Below are positions 11,350 through 58,294 of a stretch of DNA of 64,000 bases, piece by piece. Positions within the stretch are counted from its first letter, which is position 1. Each line of letters starts with the position of its first letter. Made by a program: the position numbers and the translations under genes. The notes beneath the pieces were generated by a model. The model was not told the DNA's origin. It saw only the letters and a list, made by a program, of their open reading frames with translations, and searched no databases. Origin of the DNA: Spirosoma sp. 48-14 (GTDB lineage Bacteria > Bacteroidota > Bacteroidia > Cytophagales > Spirosomataceae); contig NZ_MKUD01000009.1 of NCBI RefSeq assembly GCF_001898575.1, positions 62,001-126,000 on the forward strand, in the 5' to 3' direction.

Positions 11350-11997
11350 ATGGTAAAGAAAGAACGGTTCCGGCACTTCCTGGATTATTTTACCGTGCAT
11401 TACCCTGAACCGAAGACCGAGCTTAATTTTTCAAATCCTTACGAGTTACTGGTAGCTGTGATCCTATCGGCACAATGCACCGACAAACGAATTAATCAGA
11501 TCACACCCGCTCTATTTGCTCGTTTTCCAGAAGCAGAATCTCTGGCAGCGGCATCGGTCGATGAGGTATTTTCCTATATCCGAAGTGTGTCTTATCCGAA
11601 TAATAAGGCAAAGCACCTGGTCGGCATGGCTAAGGCGTTAATGGAGCGGTTTGGAGGGGACATTCCAGCTACAGTGGAAGAATTACAAACCCTGCCGGGG
11701 GTAGGTCGTAAAACGGCCCATGTGATTTTATCGGTAGTGTATAACGAACCGACTATGGCGGTAGACACGCACGTTTTCCGGGTATCGCATCGGTTGGGTT
11801 TAGCTCCGCTTACGGCAACTACTCCCCTGGCCGTCGAGAAAGCGTTGATGGCGCATATACCGAAACAGTACGTGCCCAAAGCGCATCACTGGCTGATTCT
11901 ACACGGACGATATATCTGCCTAGCCCGTGCGCCCAAGTGTGAGGTTTGCGAACTGAAGGATTTTTGTAAGTATTATGAAAAAGTAATTAGGAGTTAG
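11350..11997 (+). CDS. nth: Endonuclease III (DNA glycosylase/AP lyase)
   Basis: A 215-residue base-excision repair enzyme that removes oxidised pyrimidines and nicks the resulting abasic site. The helix-hairpin-helix LQTLPGVGRKTAHVIL carries the catalytic Lys, and VDTHVFRVSHRLG carries the catalytic Asp. The C-terminal [4Fe-4S] ligands are present as CLARAPKCEVCELKDFC. The last residues (VIRS) and the TAG stop lie inside the left arm of a palindromic repeat at 11981-12079, so the native C-terminus may have been altered slightly when the repeat arrived; these residues fall beyond the iron-sulfur cluster. Confidence 0.96.
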   Translation: MVKKERFRHFLDYFTVHYPEPKTELNFSNPYELLVAVILSAQCTDKRINQITPALFARFPEAESLAAASVDEVFSYIRSVSYPNNKAKHLVGMAKALMERFGGDIPATVEELQTLPGVGRKTAHVILSVVYNEPTMAVDTHVFRVSHRLGLAPLTATTPLAVEKALMAHIPKQYVPKAHHWLILHGRYICLARAPKCEVCELKDFCKYYEKVIRS

Positions 11998-12079
11998 GAG
12001 CGAGGAGTGAGAATCCTCCGTCCGACGATAAGTTTTTGCGCCAGCCTTCTCACTCCTCGCTCCTAACTCCTAATTACTT
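11981..12079. repeat. Heptamer-built palindromic element, family A, gene-less copy 1
   Basis: Arms 11981-12013 and 12047-12079 are a perfect 33-bp inverted repeat around a 33-base loop. The arms read as degenerate 7-bp units (GGAGTTA, GGAGCGA, GGAGTGA). The element fills the space between convergent nth and ndk, covers the nth stop codon, and ends 4 bases before the ndk stop. Its loop, read on the opposite strand, resembles the loop of the copy at 52127-52223. It might also act as a terminator, although no T-run follows. Confidence 0.9.
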
Positions 12080-27647: not shown

Positions 27648-27685
27648 TGGCCATTAGCGTATAGCCGAAAAAAGCATGCTACAAT

Positions 27686-27723
27686 AAAAAAGTCCGCTAG
27701 GTTAGAGCCTAGCGGACTTTTTT
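27686..27723. terminator. Bidirectional terminator
   Basis: A perfect stem (AAAAAAGTCCGCTAGG and its complement) with a 6-base loop and A/T-runs at both ends. It serves the LytTR regulator (+) and the DUF4834 gene (-). Confidence 0.95.
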
Positions 27724-27738
27724 ATTGGTTTTGATCTT

Positions 27739-45058: not shown

Positions 45059-48000
45059 TTACGGCATATCTACGTTTACCAGATTATCGTCGGCAACGCG
45101 GTCGATCAGCTTATTGTACGGATCGATTCCGGCTTTAACCGGCTTACCTTTTACAGTCACCTCGATGACATGCTCACCGGGTGTGAGGCTGTGCTTCTTC
45201 ATGTAAAGCGGTACTTTGATCGTCAGACCATCTTTGTTTTTGCTGTCGCTGGTCAGAACCGCAATGTCGACCAGAACCGGCCCCTTGCCTTTGCTGATTT
45301 CCTTACCCGATTTGTCGTAATACTCTGTTGCCGAGCGTACATTCAATTTAATACGGTATTGGTCTTTCCCGATGGGTTTTGCTTCGGCCTTGGTGATCCG
45401 GTTGTCGTAAAGCGTCAGCTTCTCAAAGTTATCGGCCAGCCAGGGTTTCAGCGAATCGGGGGTGGCGGCTTTCAGAAAACTGTACCATTCGAGCGAGGTG
45501 GTGAATGGGGCTTCCTGCCGGAACCGGGCTGCCTTCATGTAGTCGTTCATGGCCTGATTGACGCGGGCTTCGCCAATGTAGTCCTGCAAGGCATACATCA
45601 GCATCGACCCTTTCTGATACCAGACGTACGAACGAGTGTCATTATCAAGCATATTGGCTTCAAACTTATCCTCAAACGCCCGACCACCCAAATACCGATC
45701 CAGGCTATATTTCAAAAACTTGGGCATGGCATCGACACCATAGCGTTCCTTAAGAACCATCAGCGCTGAATATTCAGCCATCGTTTCCGAAATCTGGTTG
45801 GCTCCCCGTGTCCGGCTGGGCATAATCTGGTGCCCCCACCACTGGTGTGCAACCTCGTGCGCGGTCACGTAATACGCGTAATCCGTTTTGTCGGCATCCC
45901 GGAAATCGCCCACCCAGCCAAACTCTTCAGAATACGGCACTGTGGTCGGAAACGACTGGGCAAAAGCAGCATAGCGCGGAAACTCCAGCACCCGCAGCAC
46001 CGGATATGGGTAAGGCGCGTAGTTTTTGGTGTAATAACTCAGCGACGCTTTCATACTGGCCATAAATCGGTCGAGGTTACGGTCATGGCCGGGATGATGG
46101 TAAATTTCCAGCGCCACCTTTTTGCCATCAGGCCCCGTCCACGAATCACGTTTTACGGCGTACTTCGCTGAACACATGCTGAAGAAATAATCGGAGAAAC
46201 TAGGGAGTTTGTACTGAAAATACTTGCGGGGTTTGCCATTAGGCCCATTGGCGGTCCAGGTCTTGAGCAACTCGCCCGGCATAATAGCCGTTTGGTCGGG
46301 GGTAGTTGAAATAGTGCCTTCAAACGTTACCCAGTCCGCATCGTCGGTGAATAGAAAATCGCGCAGGCCACGCGGATCATTTTGAGCCGGAACCGTCCAT
46401 TCTTTCACAGGTAAACCGTACTTCTTCCGGTACTTGTCACTACTCAGCTCACCATCGACATTGTACCCAAAACCGGGAAAAATGCCCACGTTGAAGAACG
46501 TACCATTAGAAACCACTTCACGCTGATCACCACTGTTCGGAAACCCGGTATATTGCCCAGTCACGTCCATCTCCATCCGTGCCGTATCGCCCGGATTCAT
46601 TGGTTTCGGAAGCTTGTAGATGTAATAGCCAAAATCCGTATCGTTCAGAATCAGCTTCGGAGCCTGCCCATCGATGGTAAACTTCGTGAGCTTCCGATGA
46701 AAATTATCAGGCGAAATGGTCAGATGAAGCGAATCGATGGGTTGATCACCTTTATTCACAATCGAGAACTGTCCGGTTGCTACCGCCTTAAACTCATCGG
46801 GGAATACATCGACCGCTAGTTTGACGCTGGTAATTTTCGGCTGTAGTACGTTCGCATATTTGTGGTATTTCTTCTCATAGTCGGCCTGTTGTTCCCGTTG
46901 CTCGTCGGCCGAATAGTAGCGGTTTTTTACACTTACGTTGGTATAAATCCAGGCGCCCATACTCACAAAGGCGAGTACCAACAACGCCACCAGTGCTATC
47001 GATAATTTGCCCATTCGCTGCCGGGCCAGTTGCCAACGCGACTTGAAACCCGTATCGGCTCCCCGATTCCAGAACCATAGGGCCAGCACCAGCAGAATGC
47101 CGCCAAAGGCATACCAGTATACCCGAAACGATGCCAGCGAAGACAGGTAATGCCCAAATCCGTTCATGTCGGAGAGCTGGACCCCACCGCCCGAAAAGGG
47201 CAGCGCCAATTTGTAACTGAACTCGGCAAACTGCGGTACGGCCCAGATAACAATGTACGTAGCCAGGGTAGCAATATGCCCCACAAACTTCTGGTTGACC
47301 ATCGTATGCACGAAAAAGGCCAGCATCACCAACTGAAAATACTGCGTGAAGGCAATGCCATACGCATCGCGGAAGTAGAGCGGAAATTCGTAGTTGAAAT
47401 AACCCTTCACCGTCTGGTCCAATACGCCCGATACAATGATGAGTGTACAGAGCAGCAGACAGATGTAGGTCATAGCCAACAGCTTGGCCCCGTAATTCAT
47501 CCAGTCGGGCACGGGCAGGGCATCAGCAATGGTATCGTAATGGACCACTTTATCGCGGTGAACTACCTCGCCCGTGTAGAAAATAATGACAATCAGCACG
47601 AAGAAGAAGAATGTACCGTTCCGGGCTTCGAGCATGGTATAGGTAGTTGGCAAGGAGGGCGTACCATAGGTTTGTACGCCAAACCAGCCATCCAGAAACA
47701 GGAACAGCACCGCCCCGAGCAGAATGGCAATGAAATACGGGTCGCGGATGATGTTGCTAAACTCGATCCGGGCCTGTTTAACCATCTGCCCAATGTAGGT
47801 ACTGACCTGAAAAACAGGCGTTGGCGTTGGCAGACTTGCCAGCGAAGGTGCTTTCTCTGTAGAAGCTTCTCCTTTGGCTTTTTTGCCCAGTTTGACGGCC
47901 AGAAACCGCGCGAAACTAAACCGAAACACCGTTAGCAAAAACACCAGCAGTGCTACGCCCAACCAGATTAGGCGATTAGTCAGTAAATCGCCTTCGAGCG

Positions 48001-48706
48001 GTGGTACCAGCGTATTCTGCTCCACTGGCGACCAGTATTTGGTGGCATTGTCATAAGCAAACGAGCCGAACGGATCGAGCAGGTTGACAAGGTGTTTGTT
48101 TTCCAGATCCTGCGAGAGCGTGGTACCGAGCAGATACGCAATGAACAGCAAAATACTCCCCGCATAGGTCGTAAACACCTGCTGTGAAAAAGCGACTAAT
48201 GCAAAGAAAATGCTGCCGACCAGAAACATATTGGGCAACACAAACAGCAGAAACGGATAGGCATAATCGCGAAACCGAATGGGTCCGAACCGCTCGGTAT
48301 TGTCAGCCAGATTAAACACCGGCCCCAGCAATGAGCCAATAACGATGCCGAGCATCCCCACCGCCATAATACCCAACAGTACGACAAACGACCCGAAATA
48401 CCGGCCCAGGATGTAGCCTCGCTCGGTGATTGGGAAACTGAAGAAGTAATTTTTGGTATTGTGTTCAATGTCGCGATAGACTGGCACACCCATCACCGCT
48501 GAGGCTACCAGCATCCCGAAAATAGTCATTACCACCACAAACTGACTGATGGCGTAGGGTGAATTGACATTCGTTTTCTCCGATGCCGGTCCACTCCCAT
48601 AAATAACAAACAAAAAGGTAAACAGAAACAGAATCAGGGCGTAGAGGTAAGTGGCAGGCCGTTTAAGCCGGTACGCGAGTTCAAAGCGGAAAATTTCAGA
48701 GAACAT
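45059..48706 (-). CDS. ABC-2 type permease fused to an M1 aminopeptidase
   Basis: A 1215-residue fusion. The N-terminal half has about twelve TM segments in two ABC-2-type sets (FELAYRLKRPATYLYALILF, FVVVMTIFGMLVASAVMGVP, then a second set near residue 320). The C-terminal half is an M1 metallopeptidase: HEVAHQWWGHQ gives the HEXXH pair and ISETMAEYSALMVLKERYG the third zinc ligand. Permease-peptidase fusions of this type are known in Bacteroidota with an ABC ATPase next door; here the ATPase gene lies 528 bases upstream because a repeat-flanked gene has inserted between them. Confidence 0.95.
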   Translation of the reverse strand: MFSEIFRFELAYRLKRPATYLYALILFLFTFLFVIYGSGPASEKTNVNSPYAISQFVVVMTIFGMLVASAVMGVPVYRDIEHNTKNYFFSFPITERGYILGRYFGSFVVLLGIMAVGMLGIVIGSLLGPVFNLADNTERFGPIRFRDYAYPFLLFVLPNMFLVGSIFFALVAFSQQVFTTYAGSILLFIAYLLGTTLSQDLENKHLVNLLDPFGSFAYDNATKYWSPVEQNTLVPPLEGDLLTNRLIWLGVALLVFLLTVFRFSFARFLAVKLGKKAKGEASTEKAPSLASLPTPTPVFQVSTYIGQMVKQARIEFSNIIRDPYFIAILLGAVLFLFLDGWFGVQTYGTPSLPTTYTMLEARNGTFFFFVLIVIIFYTGEVVHRDKVVHYDTIADALPVPDWMNYGAKLLAMTYICLLLCTLIIVSGVLDQTVKGYFNYEFPLYFRDAYGIAFTQYFQLVMLAFFVHTMVNQKFVGHIATLATYIVIWAVPQFAEFSYKLALPFSGGGVQLSDMNGFGHYLSSLASFRVYWYAFGGILLVLALWFWNRGADTGFKSRWQLARQRMGKLSIALVALLVLAFVSMGAWIYTNVSVKNRYYSADEQREQQADYEKKYHKYANVLQPKITSVKLAVDVFPDEFKAVATGQFSIVNKGDQPIDSLHLTISPDNFHRKLTKFTIDGQAPKLILNDTDFGYYIYKLPKPMNPGDTARMEMDVTGQYTGFPNSGDQREVVSNGTFFNVGIFPGFGYNVDGELSSDKYRKKYGLPVKEWTVPAQNDPRGLRDFLFTDDADWVTFEGTISTTPDQTAIMPGELLKTWTANGPNGKPRKYFQYKLPSFSDYFFSMCSAKYAVKRDSWTGPDGKKVALEIYHHPGHDRNLDRFMASMKASLSYYTKNYAPYPYPVLRVLEFPRYAAFAQSFPTTVPYSEEFGWVGDFRDADKTDYAYYVTAHEVAHQWWGHQIMPSRTRGANQISETMAEYSALMVLKERYGVDAMPKFLKYSLDRYLGGRAFEDKFEANMLDNDTRSYVWYQKGSMLMYALQDYIGEARVNQAMNDYMKAARFRQEAPFTTSLEWYSFLKAATPDSLKPWLADNFEKLTLYDNRITKAEAKPIGKDQYRIKLNVRSATEYYDKSGKEISKGKGPVLVDIAVLTSDSKNKDGLTIKVPLYMKKHSLTPGEHVIEVTVKGKPVKAGIDPYNKLIDRVADDNLVNVDMP

Positions 48707-48714
48707 GGGGTTTC

Positions 48715-49235
48715 AAGGAGTTAGGAGTTAGGAGCTAGAAGTGAGGAGGTGGGCTACATAGGCTCACGTACCCATGCTACTAACGTTGGCTATTAACTGC
48801 GGTATAATAGGCGTTAAGCAAACGCGCTATTTCTTCTAAATCAGCTTGCAAATCGGCTGTATCAGCGTATTCTAAATCATGAGCCAAAATCAGATAATAA
48901 TGTGATTCATCTAATGACCCCTGTGCCGTGTTAAGAAACTTGGCTTTATCGGGTATCGTCCGTTTTCGATAACCTTCTGCAATATTTCCAGGAACTGAAA
49001 CAGCACTTCGTCGCAACTGGGAAGTCAGCCCGAACAATTCTTCCTTCGGAAAATGTTTGGTCAGCTTATAGATTTTCAAGACAAATTGATGAGCTTTTTG
49101 CCAGACAATGAGTTCCTTAAAATGTCGTGTTTTCTCCATTTGAAAGATGTTTACAAGGTGGGTATTTGATTTATATGCGTCAACGTACGTGGCCCGAACC
49201 TCCTCACTTCTAACTCCTCGCTCCTCACTTCTTTT
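48715..49235. mobile_element. Repeat-flanked element carrying a four-helix-bundle gene (family A)
   Basis: Arms 48715-48750 and 49198-49235 form an inverted repeat that matches at 31 of 36 aligned positions and is built of the same 7-bp units (GGAGTTA, GGAGCTA, GAAGTGA, GAGGAGG-like) as the gene-less palindromes at 12.0 and 52.2 kb. Between the arms lies a gene for an IVP-like protein (48780-49139, minus strand). The element interrupts an ABC exporter operon exactly between the ATPase stop and the permease start. It is interpreted as a small mobile element; transposition itself cannot be seen in one genome window. Confidence 0.75.
48780..49139 (-). CDS. Four-helix-bundle protein (23S rRNA IVP / Avd-like family)
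   Basis: A 119-residue protein starting at ATG 49139 (MEKTRHFKELIVWQKAHQF). A longer in-frame version would translate the repeat arm (MCKRSEERGVRSEEV) and is rejected. The full TIGR02436/PF05635 signature is present: L-x-VWQKAH, then IYKLTKHFPKEELFGLTSQL, RRSAVSVPGNIAEGYRKR and FLNTAQGSLDESHYYLI. Relatives are encoded in intervening sequences of 23S rRNA in Leptospira and Coxiella, and the Avd subunit of diversity-generating retroelements has the same fold; they form pentamers and bind nucleic acid. No rRNA gene or reverse transcriptase is near. Confidence 0.93.
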   Translation of the reverse strand: MEKTRHFKELIVWQKAHQFVLKIYKLTKHFPKEELFGLTSQLRRSAVSVPGNIAEGYRKRTIPDKAKFLNTAQGSLDESHYYLILAHDLEYADTADLQADLEEIARLLNAYYTAVNSQR

Positions 49236-50133
49236 ACACACTCATCACCCCCATTTTCTCCGTGATTTTCGTAAAGTACACGTCCTCCAGGTCGGGGGTT
49301 ACGGGGGTGAACCCGTCAAGGGGAACTTCACTGTACGCATGTAGCCTTGTTTTGCCACCTTTCAATTGTGTGGAGATAATTTGATGCGTTTGGCGATAGG
49401 TATCGATTTCCGACTTCTCAACGGATTTCTGCCATACCTTGCCATTCAACTGAGTCACCAGATCGTTCGGATTGCCCGTAGCCACGACTTCGCCCAGACA
49501 AATGATCGCCATGTCGGAACAGAGATTGGTCACATCTTCCACAATGTGCGTCGACAGAATGACAATGGTATTTTCACCAATTTCCGACAGCAGGTTATGA
49601 AACCGGTTGCGTTCGGCCGGGTCAAGACCGGCAGTTGGTTCATCGACAATAATCAGGCGGGGGCTACCGATCAGGGCCTGGGCAATGCCAAAGCGCTGTT
49701 TCATCCCACCCGAATACGTTCCCAGATTTTTCTTCCGCACCTCATACAAATTCACTTTCTGAAGCAGGCCTTGTACAATCTCTTTTCGCTCTTTGCTGTT
49801 GGCAATTCCTTTCAGCGTAGCAATATGGTCGAGCATGGCCTCGGCCGTTACGCGCGGATAAACCCCGAACTCCTGCGGCAAGTAGCCCAGCAGTCGCCGA
49901 ACAGCGTCTTTCTGGGTTAGTATATCCAAGTCTCCTTCGGGCAGTCCAGTCAAACGAGCGCTTCCGCCGTCGGCTTCCTGTAAGGTTGCAATCGTTCGCA
50001 TGAGCGATGACTTACCGGCCCCATTAGGGCCTAATAAACCAAACATACCCTGTGGAATGGTCAGCGAAACACCTTTCAGCGCCCGAACGCCGTTGGAATA
50101 GGTCTTGGTTAGGTCTTTAATTTCGAGTTGCAT
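49234..50133 (-). CDS. ABC transporter ATP-binding protein of the M1-fusion exporter
   Basis: A 299-residue ATPase with MQLEIKDLTKTYSNGVRALK at the start, Walker A GLLGPNGAGKSSLMRTIATL, Q-loop GYLPQEFGVYPRVTAEAMLD, signature YSGGMKQRFGIAQAL, Walker B LIIVDEPTAGLDPAERNRFH, and switch ILSTHIVEDV. The C-terminal ~70 residues form a regulatory-type extension (QLNGKVWQKSVEKSEIDTYR). It is the natural partner of the permease-peptidase fusion at 45059-48706. Its TAA stop overlaps the outer end of the repeat element's right arm. Confidence 0.96.
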   Translation of the reverse strand: MQLEIKDLTKTYSNGVRALKGVSLTIPQGMFGLLGPNGAGKSSLMRTIATLQEADGGSARLTGLPEGDLDILTQKDAVRRLLGYLPQEFGVYPRVTAEAMLDHIATLKGIANSKERKEIVQGLLQKVNLYEVRKKNLGTYSGGMKQRFGIAQALIGSPRLIIVDEPTAGLDPAERNRFHNLLSEIGENTIVILSTHIVEDVTNLCSDMAIICLGEVVATGNPNDLVTQLNGKVWQKSVEKSEIDTYRQTHQIISTQLKGGKTRLHAYSEVPLDGFTPVTPDLEDVYFTKITEKMGVMSV

Positions 50134-50813: not shown

Positions 50814-50889
50814 CAATGAATAATGGATAATGTATAATGAACATGGGAGCTACAGACATTATCCATTGCCCATTATACATTATCCATTA
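50814..50889. repeat. Heptamer-built inverted repeat, family B, copy 2
   Basis: A perfect 18-bp pair at 50822-50839 and 50871-50888 (starting AATGGATAATGTA) around a 31-base spacer. The arms read as AATGAAT, AATGGAT, AATGTAT units. It lies between the divergent DUF2480 and dnaN starts, upstream of the dnaN -7 box. Confidence 0.85.
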
Positions 50890-52126: not shown

Positions 52127-52223
52127 AAGGAGTTAGGAGCGAGGAGCGAGAAGTGAGAATGGCGGACGCAAAAGATTGCTGCCGGATGGATTCTCACTTC
52201 TCGCTCCTCGCTCCTAACTCCTT
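52127..52223. repeat. Heptamer-built palindromic element, family A, gene-less copy 2
   Basis: Arms 52127-52160 and 52190-52223 form a perfect 34-bp inverted repeat around a 29-base loop. The units are GGAGTTA, GGAGCGA, GGAGCGA and GAAGTGA. The left arm begins 5 bases after the dnaN stop and the right arm ends 9 bases before the MFS start, so it fills the intergenic space. The loop is 20/29 identical to the opposite strand of the 11981-12079 loop. Confidence 0.92.
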
Positions 52224-54576: not shown

Positions 54577-54626
54577 AGTTGTATAGGGCTTATTGGCAGG
54601 ATTATTTACCACGTGTTATGCTTACT

Positions 54627-54686
54627 GTAACGCGGGTGGAAACCCGCGACATTCGACTGAATAGCGCGGGTTTCCACCCGCGTTAC
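54627..54686. repeat. Palindromic repeat, family C, copy 2
   Basis: A perfect 22-bp inverted repeat (arms 54627-54648 and 54665-54686, GTAACGCGGGTGGAAACCCG start) with a 16-base loop ending ATAG. Compared with copy 1 at 34773-34831, the central T:A pair is A:T here, a compensated change. Confidence 0.9.
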
Positions 54687-54696
54687 AACGAATCAA

Positions 54697-57659: not shown

Positions 57660-57670
57660 GTAGCTTATGC

Positions 57671-57733
57671 ATAGGTTGTAAATGGCATAATATACAGAAT
57701 ACTTCCCTGTAAATCATGCCATTTACAACCTAT
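57671..57733. repeat. Perfect 18-bp inverted repeat next to the YceI stop
   Basis: Arms 57671-57688 and 57716-57733 (ATAGGTTGTAAATGGCAT and its complement) are perfect, with a 27-base loop. It fills the gap between the serine hydrolase start and the YceI stop, and may end the sigma operon. Confidence 0.75.
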
Positions 57734-58294
57734 TCATAAACTAAATACAATAGTAAACCGGAGCATCATAGCATCTTCGGTCTTTAGCCCCATCAACGAG
57801 GGACGCTCAATGTTGTGATCAGTCATATTCACCGGGAACTCACCCGTCAGAGTCATCTTATTCCCATTGTCTTTGCGGGTGGCGTTCAGTGTGACAGGCT
57901 TAGATACCCCATGAAACGTTAGCGTTCCCTTTGCTGTAAGTGCCCCATTATCGCCTGCTTTAATATCTGAACTGGTAAAGGTTACATTCGGGTATTTGAT
58001 GCCTTCCATCGCTTCTACAGCGTGAGAGTCCCGATTATTATTATCGCTGTCGAAGGAGGCAACTTTGATGGAAACAGCTACGGTTTCAGGCTGTTTTGTA
58101 TCGTCATTGTAGATAATGGCACAATTCACATCATGGCTAACGCCCTCCCAGCTATGAAGCGGGTGTTTGGCCGCATACGTAACAGTCGAAGCCGCTTTAT
58201 CGGCCATTATTTTTCGTTTTGCCAGGGGAGCTGTAAAGGCACAAAGAACCATGATGGCTACCAGGCAGCCATTTGCAATCGAATAGTTTTTCAT
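57734..58294 (-). CDS. YceI family periplasmic protein
   Basis: A 186-residue protein with signal peptide SIANGCLVAIMVLCAFTAPL. The YceI beta-barrel pattern follows: STVTYAAKHPLHSWEGVSHD, then FDSDNNNRDSHAVEAMEGIK and GTLTFHGVSKPVTLNATRKD. Structures of relatives bind polyprenoid or quinone-like lipids. It is the last gene of an operon with a Rieske protein and a 4-TM His-rich protein, which matches the E. coli pairing of yceI with the cytochrome b561 gene yceJ. Confidence 0.92.
   Translation of the reverse strand: MKNYSIANGCLVAIMVLCAFTAPLAKRKIMADKAASTVTYAAKHPLHSWEGVSHDVNCAIIYNDDTKQPETVAVSIKVASFDSDNNNRDSHAVEAMEGIKYPNVTFTSSDIKAGDNGALTAKGTLTFHGVSKPVTLNATRKDNGNKMTLTGEFPVNMTDHNIERPSLMGLKTEDAMMLRFTIVFSL

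Follow-up and report, generated by a model that had tools for sequence, protein, structure and literature searches.

An IVP gene between heptamer arms in a Spirosoma ABC exporter operon, probably belonging to a widespread kind of mobile intervening element

Introduction

What is a small gene for a four-helix-bundle protein doing between two cistrons of an ABC exporter operon, closed in on both sides by inverted repeats of 7-nt units? The question arises from the window, i.e., the whole stretch of DNA analysed here (64,000 nucleotides, positions 62001-126000 of contig C9, NZ_MKUD01000009.1), in the 8.68 Mb genome of Spirosoma sp. 48-14. We consider, with a probability of about four in five, that gene and arms together represent a mobile intervening element of the rRNA-IVS kind, one that is widespread, carries an IVP gene (S23p, PF05635) between inverted arms and is established at junctions of protein operons.

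Results

The ABC exporter operon is encoded on the minus strand, and the ATPase, the IVP gene and the permease-peptidase gene all share this orientation. The ATPase gene (PF00005) is located upstream of the element at 49234-50133, and the downstream gene at 45059-48706 encodes an ABC permease fused to an M1 peptidase, with PF01433 (M1 peptidase) above its cut-off and PF12730 (ABC2-membrane) at 25 of 27 bits, below it. The IVP gene at 48780-49139 encodes a 119 aa protein of the four-helix-bundle family, with an open frame that extends to 49241. Profile search matched it with PF05635 at 3.3e-37 and with TIGR02436 at 3.6e-36, and its sequence relatives with a solved structure are 2gsc (E-value = 1.6e-20) and 2rld (E-value = 3e-05). 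The 5' arm in gene orientation (49198-49233, minus strand) is built of GGAG or GAAG followed by NNN and abuts the ATPase stop codon directly, and the 3' arm (48715-48750, minus strand) ends 8 nt ahead of the permease ATG (48706). Each arm consists of 36 nt in 7-nt units, with a complementarity of 86% (31/36). The sequence-only reading had described such a repeat around a four-helix-bundle gene, placed exactly between the ATPase and its permease-peptidase partner, and both statements were confirmed. Inside the element, ORF and profile searches revealed no transposase and no gene other than that of the IVP; no Rfam family reached the gathering threshold in the 64-kb window, no target duplication was seen at the window copy and phage records contained no relative of the IVP at E 1e-5.

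Orthologous ABC junctions were defined by 21 ATPase matches within the genus at ≥84% identity, the others (≤68%) being counted as paralogues. Seven of them bear a whole IVP gene, one a cut-off IVP, three decayed remains (a 3' gene part with an arm in two, an arm remnant in one) and ten no IVP at all. Among these ten, two have gaps of only 11 bp, two contain unrelated palindromes and one (G011) holds a possible arm remnant. Arms that score (18.5-25) accompany five of the seven whole copies, and only unit remnants could be recognized by eye in G027 and G030 (9.0 and 9.5). An IVP gene present without repeats in all orthologues, which would have refuted the sequence-only reading, is not the pattern of this site, and this check speaks in favour of that reading. 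The orthologues look like a case of vertical inheritance with losses. In G008 and G022 (L173, L174), the junction harbors GTGGTGTCGGGTT...AACCCGACAC palindromes with the core GCTGACG/GCGTCAGC, and the spot is reused by another palindrome family. In the nearest relative, G001 (L067, L168), the IVP is cut off after 76 residues. Homology to the window ends within that gene, and no permease gene was seen in the stretch inspected; our reading of this site is an insertion or a rearrangement.

Two perfect gene-less palindromes are built of the GGAG-NNN units of the window element, exactly as previously noted: the first, at 11981-12079, has arms of 33 nt, and the second, at 52127-52223, has arms of 34 nt and separates dnaN from an MFS gene. 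A gene-less near-palindrome upstream of dnaN (50815-50889) was assigned by eye to a second unit family (TAATGGA type), in the style of the arms of the IVP gene L004. Genome-wide, the word GGAGTTAGGAG has 37 copies, whereas its reversed control has one, and 10 pairs of plus and minus copies lying within about 100 bp account for 20 of the 37. Among 21 distinct stretches that contain GGAGTTAGGAG, nine have the inner core GCTGACGC, versus 0.6% of random pieces; a shorter core, TGACGC, separates arm and gene in four of the eight IVP copies of the ABC site and is weak alone. The order of the units varies among the copies of the GGAG family, yet within each copy one arm mirrors the other. For this comparison the 13 of 21 distinct stretches with clear arms were taken, 12 of which were usable palindromes (L028 was left out). 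Own arms showed 0.67 mismatches in 22 nt, versus 2.88 with the arms of other copies, and none of 10000 random re-pairings was as good. This mirrored order suggests that one arm has repeatedly been copied from the other, or that the copies are made as hairpins.

Six PF05635 genes were found in the source genome and short-unit inverted arms surround all six by eye, although by arm score four exceed 95% and one exceeds 99% of mismatched pairs. Their arms fall into five unit families, one of which (shared by two neighbouring genes) has 8-nt units. The scope of the sequence-only reading is corrected here, as the arms of IVP genes are not restricted to the GGAG-type unit family. At the dnaN-MFS junction a palindrome was detected by eye in all eight congeners that could be mapped (11 tried), of GGAG type in three, of other short-unit types in four and without such units in one. 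Palindromes of other kinds are present in the window as well. A perfect one of a different type (TGTAACGCGGGTGGAAACCCGCG) at 54626-54687 closely resembles a palindrome that follows the Y1-transposase gene in L245, and the two are probably an ordinary REP-RAYT pair of the source genome. Two more, at 27682-27727 and 57665-57739, are devoid of 7-nt periodicity, the former being terminator-like.

In order to compare loci, we scored the inverted complementarity of the two flanks of each gene, with left flanks paired to the right flanks of other loci as control. Among the best 80 of at least 585 relatives in a GTDB genome scan, 73 named loci from many phyla remained after omission of seven without full flanks; 52 of the 73 exceeded the 95% level of mismatched pairs and 38 the 99% level, and 21 (29%) were at or below the 95% level. 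With a 21-base window and a threshold of 16, their flanks showed a period of 7 nt in 42 loci, 8 nt in 13 and 14 nt (twice 7) in 33, compared with at most three loci for each remaining lag from 4 to 13 (a 28-base window with a threshold of 22 was too strict to show much). Represented among the 80 named loci, by their titles, are Pseudomonadota, Bacteroidota, Planctomycetota, Acidobacteriota, Verrucomicrobiota, Chloroflexota, Nitrospirota, clostridia and candidate phyla; one archaeal bin was also listed and remained uncounted, its flank being too short. Bacteroidota-wide loci exceeded the 95% level in 19 of 30 cases and the 99% level in 16, in a set taken from the top of a score-sorted list and biased toward canonical IVPs. 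Within the genus the figures were 13/27 and 6/27, against a control that is inflated by shared sites. At a fixed cut-off of 13, arms were scored in 19/33 and 17/20 genus loci (36/53 together), in 16/30 and 20/39 Bacteroidota-wide loci and in 7/12 plasmid loci, versus 1/30 for SmpB genes and 2/5 for RAYT genes, the inverted flanks of the RAYT genes showing no 7- or 8-nt period. L052 and L064 (cut or interrupted) were excluded from the genus scores and L244 (a fragment) from the RAYT set; L202 (contig end) was dropped as well. The share of IVP loci without arms visible to the score ranges, depending on the set, from a third to about half. The tie between repeat arms and IVP genes elsewhere, upon which the sequence-only reading depended, is therefore borne out, with 52 of 73 named loci against a single SmpB locus in 30.

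A divergent IVP subfamily, found mainly at one genus locus (L005, L006, L220-L239), has 8-nt units in place of 7-nt ones, and its low-scoring loci show period 8 in 17 of 20 cases and period 7 in none. On a tree of 131 IVP loci (L053, L065 and L203, with an internal stop or too short, were left out), the unit period changes 30 times versus 58 after shuffling, protein clade and period going together on the full tree. When the tree was collapsed to one row per site and label, nine changes were counted versus 10.9, a value reached by 35 and 55 of 500 shuffles, hence the tree suggests such a coupling as a weak hint only.

Concerning placement, 108 of the 197 IVP loci examined have arms with a score of at least 15. 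A co-directional frame ends near the left arm in 98 of them, with the arm starting at a median of +1 nt from the stop codon (interquartile range -5 to +6), and an ATG follows the right arm in 83, at a median of 9 nt. The armed elements have a median length of 496 nt and arms of 31 nt (quartiles 26 and 37); a fixed number of exactly five heptamers per arm was rejected, as no sharp value emerges from these lengths. When each site was counted once, 51 of 76 elements had sense genes on both sides and six had antisense genes on both sides, the others being mixed or unclear. The operonic sites thus divide into 51 sense versus six antisense (n = 57), whereas SmpB control loci have sense genes on both sides in 6/30 and display no such bias. 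The sense bias may stem from selection for expression, or it may be inherent in the way the element inserts.

Insertion was observed on cyanobacterial plasmids. An element (L159) is located between two genes on plasmid C of Trichormus variabilis, and six plasmid records with flanks 97.5-97.9% identical lack it at this site (L327 and L328 were inspected). Here (site A, L159/L160 against L327/L328), the empty sequence AAAAAGTAATTAACAAATAAATATG becomes AAAAAGTAAT, element and GTAATTAACAAATAAATATG, with a 5-bp duplication of GTAAT. A decayed copy is established at the same place on plasmid E of Nostoc sp. C052 (L329). The L159 element presents 82.5% identity with that of Aulosira (L157) and 77.8% with that of Nostoc (L158), and in both cases the homology runs from arm to arm only. 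The automatic arm score of L157-L160 (9.5-11.5) is below the cut-off, as the right arm and the 3' end of the IVP gene share sequence, and their arms (TCAGGAGTCAG... / ...CTGACTCCTGA) were recognized by eye. Further occupied and IVP-free sites were paired for L158 (against L330-L332 and L335), for L163 and L336 (the IVP-free partner being L337; L333 has a palindrome without gene) and for L156, between cas10 and cmr3, against Picosynechococcus PCC 7002 (88.8%). The traces left at the junctions are inconsistent, with a clean duplication at site A only: it is degenerate at site B, three bp are repeated (five with one mismatch) at site B2, i.e., the next junction in L335 against L158 and L330, and at site F the 3' end of the target gene is replaced. 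In L157, the last codons of the host gene are replaced, without duplication. That IVP elements insert on plasmids is nevertheless plain from these pairs. The earlier suggestion that palindromes and IVP gene form one mobile family, with the gene-bearing copy as a putative mobilising form, is supported in part: armed units do insert, periodic arms go with IVP genes, and the palindromes share units and, weakly, the inner core with the window IVP copy.

One relative lies in rRNA itself. On a plasmid of Azospirillum lipoferum (L167), an IVP gene is located inside an LSU rRNA gene between heptamer arms (GGACGGATGACAGAGGACGGAGGACAG; units GGACGGA, TGACAGA and GGACAGA), with a pair score of 23.5. Intervening sequences with S23p are described from Leptospira, Coxiella and Brucella (PMC4990558), and like the window element they consist of complementary arms around a PF05635 gene that is oriented in sense. 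That of Coxiella has a 28-bp stem with the S23p ORF in sense and GACAGAT heptamers ahead of it, in a number that varies by strain (PMC4990558), so heptamers near the gene are common to the window element, Coxiella and L167. The same paper recalls older suggestions that IVSs derived from transposition or were once mobile elements, gives IVP/S23p as a pentamer and regards the Coxiella S23p as probably unexpressed, with a decaying ORF (PMC4990558), which speaks against a needed protein there. The window element shares the PF05635 protein and the complementary ends for one long stem (36-nt arms, 31/36), but rRNA IVSs, which RNase III cuts out of the transcript, reside in an rRNA hairpin, whereas the window copy is situated between protein genes of an ABC operon; it probably works like an IVS and is related to it, although it is no rRNA IVS by location. 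Selection for an RNA stem was also considered for the arms and dropped, as G.U-type and reverse transitions among the mismatches are balanced (32:31).

Discussion

IVP elements are real, general and mobile in relatives, and constitute an IVS-type element outside rRNA. This is based on an architecture that recurs across phyla, one rRNA copy with like arms, occupied and empty sites on near-identical plasmids, homology that stops at the arms, and decayed and IVP-free copies of the window's own site. The element is a unit of about 0.45-0.55 kb, consisting of an IVP gene between arms of about four to five units of 7 nt (sometimes 8 nt), and is placed at co-directional cistron junctions, from the upstream stop codon to just before the next start codon. 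In our model, expression of the gene would rely on read-through within the host operon, the recognised ends would be the arms, and the gene-less palindromes would be deletion derivatives. No enzymatic activity of IVP is known. The most likely mechanism would be that the IVP pentamer, a four-helix bundle related to Avd, binds the arms, and that a host enzyme (a polymerase with template switch, a nuclease or a reverse transcriptase) copies and inserts the unit. We also entertain, as a rather doubtful extension, that IVP elements may form a separate mobile class moving without its own transposase. The pentamer would read one heptamer per subunit (arms having about four to five units), by analogy with TRAP and its repeats. 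New copies would be directed to RNAs associated with the ribosome, or to the genes for them, at the tips of rRNA hairpins and at the stop-start junctions of mRNAs, in sense orientation, and many of the heptamer palindromes dispersed in bacterial genomes would be footprints of the element.

Other explanations place the mobility, or the function, elsewhere. REPIN-RAYT systems also comprise a gene flanked by palindromes and gene-less copies elsewhere, and the palindromes described here could be REP-like repeats moved in trans by a RAYT (Y1) transposase, with IVP genes as trapped passengers. The source genome has six PF01797 matches, gene-less palindromes are abundant and intergenic, and two of the five RAYT loci have inverted flanks (26.5 and 28.0), one with the palindrome matched at window 54626-54687. 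Yet none of the five usable RAYT loci has 7- or 8-nt periodic flanks, periodic arms track IVP genes across phyla, unlike what is expected of a passenger, and IVP elements differ in having unit periodicity, arms mirrored per copy and no Y1 transposase inside; among the five usable RAYT loci, none has a Y1 transposase bordered by repeats of this kind. We regard this origin as quite improbable. An insertion sequence or MITE of the DDE type would share the terminal inverted repeats, but there is no transposase inside. As to target duplications of fixed length, 5 bp were seen at site A, and the traces at B, B2 and F are unclear or absent.

A less unlikely, though still improbable, view is that nothing moves: IVP would bind heptamer hairpins between cistrons and tune the operon mRNA, with autoregulatory arms and the palindromes as targets. 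The placement between co-directional cistrons suits this view, as does the palindrome at the dnaN-MFS junction in 8/8 mapped congeners (11 tried, by eye), but the unit families at that junction are unrelated among congeners, IVP-free and decayed sites are common, and the arm pairing has no wobble bias (32:31). The assignment of IVP to host systems, e.g., as a CRISPR-associated gene or as the Avd of diversity-generating retroelements, appears very improbable. IVP genes do occur in cas operons (L156, cas10-cmr3; L161; L164; cas6-cas4 is also among the sites), 18 IVP genes of cas loci have been given as an associated function (PMC3936711), and a likeness of PF05635 to Avd has been pointed out (PMC10053308). 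However, L156, L161 and L164 are all armed (14.5, 30.5 and 28.0), no IVP is present in the cas6/cas4 region of a Dolichospermum plasmid (98.6% identity, 61% query coverage), and IVP genes are also found among transfer, carboxylase, transporter and other genes. The similarity of the window IVP to bAvd/Avd profiles is weak and below family cut-offs (bAvd 28.2 of 40 bits, NF033474 31.5 of 80), with no reverse transcriptase adjoining; the single PF00078 match of the genome is on contig C37, whereas the element is on C9. On the Dolichospermum plasmid (L341), a GTTGGGTT palindrome lies between cas6 and cas4 in place of the IVP element.

Heptamer repeats themselves are known in print. Tandem GGGAATC units in Xanthomonas and GGGGA(T/C)T units in Nostoc have been reported, with 186 in Xcc and 70 inverted pairs (PMC4692102), and TAACTGA heptamers in Beggiatoaceae, Cyanobacteria and Bacteroidetes, for which "no mechanism is evident" (PMC4679880); Rehm et al. 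described the repeats as generally not associated with mobile elements. They resemble IVP arms as intergenic 7-nt units near genes with a species-specific turnover, and in xanthomonads as inverted pairs (PMC4692102; PMC4679880); mentions of S23 or four-helix are absent from the text of both papers. In an IVP copy of Xanthomonas vasicola (L247), both flanks carry units of GGGAATC type (GGGAATCGGGAGTGGAGAATCGGGAATC before the gene, CATTCCCCATTCTCGACTCCCTATTCCC after it), and the automatic score of 11.0 misses the right arm; the Luteimonas copy (L248) scores 17.5. Judging by the frames, the neighbours of both read as accB-accC. The Xanthomonas repeats in print match the arms of the element. Among the open-licence papers listed, we found no description of heptamer-armed IVP elements outside rRNA. 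The claim of the sequence-only reading that none exists can be kept to that extent, with the qualification that 18 IVP genes in cas loci had already been given, without being called elements in that passage (PMC3936711).

IVP elements join three separate puzzles, i.e., the role of IVP/S23p, the origin of 23S rRNA intervening sequences and the source of heptamer repeats in cyanobacteria, Bacteroidota and xanthomonads. Many genes annotated as "four helix bundle protein", some of them taken as CRISPR-associated, would be mobile insertions, and the family offers a testable minimal element, the sole gene of which encodes a small protein without known enzymatic activity.
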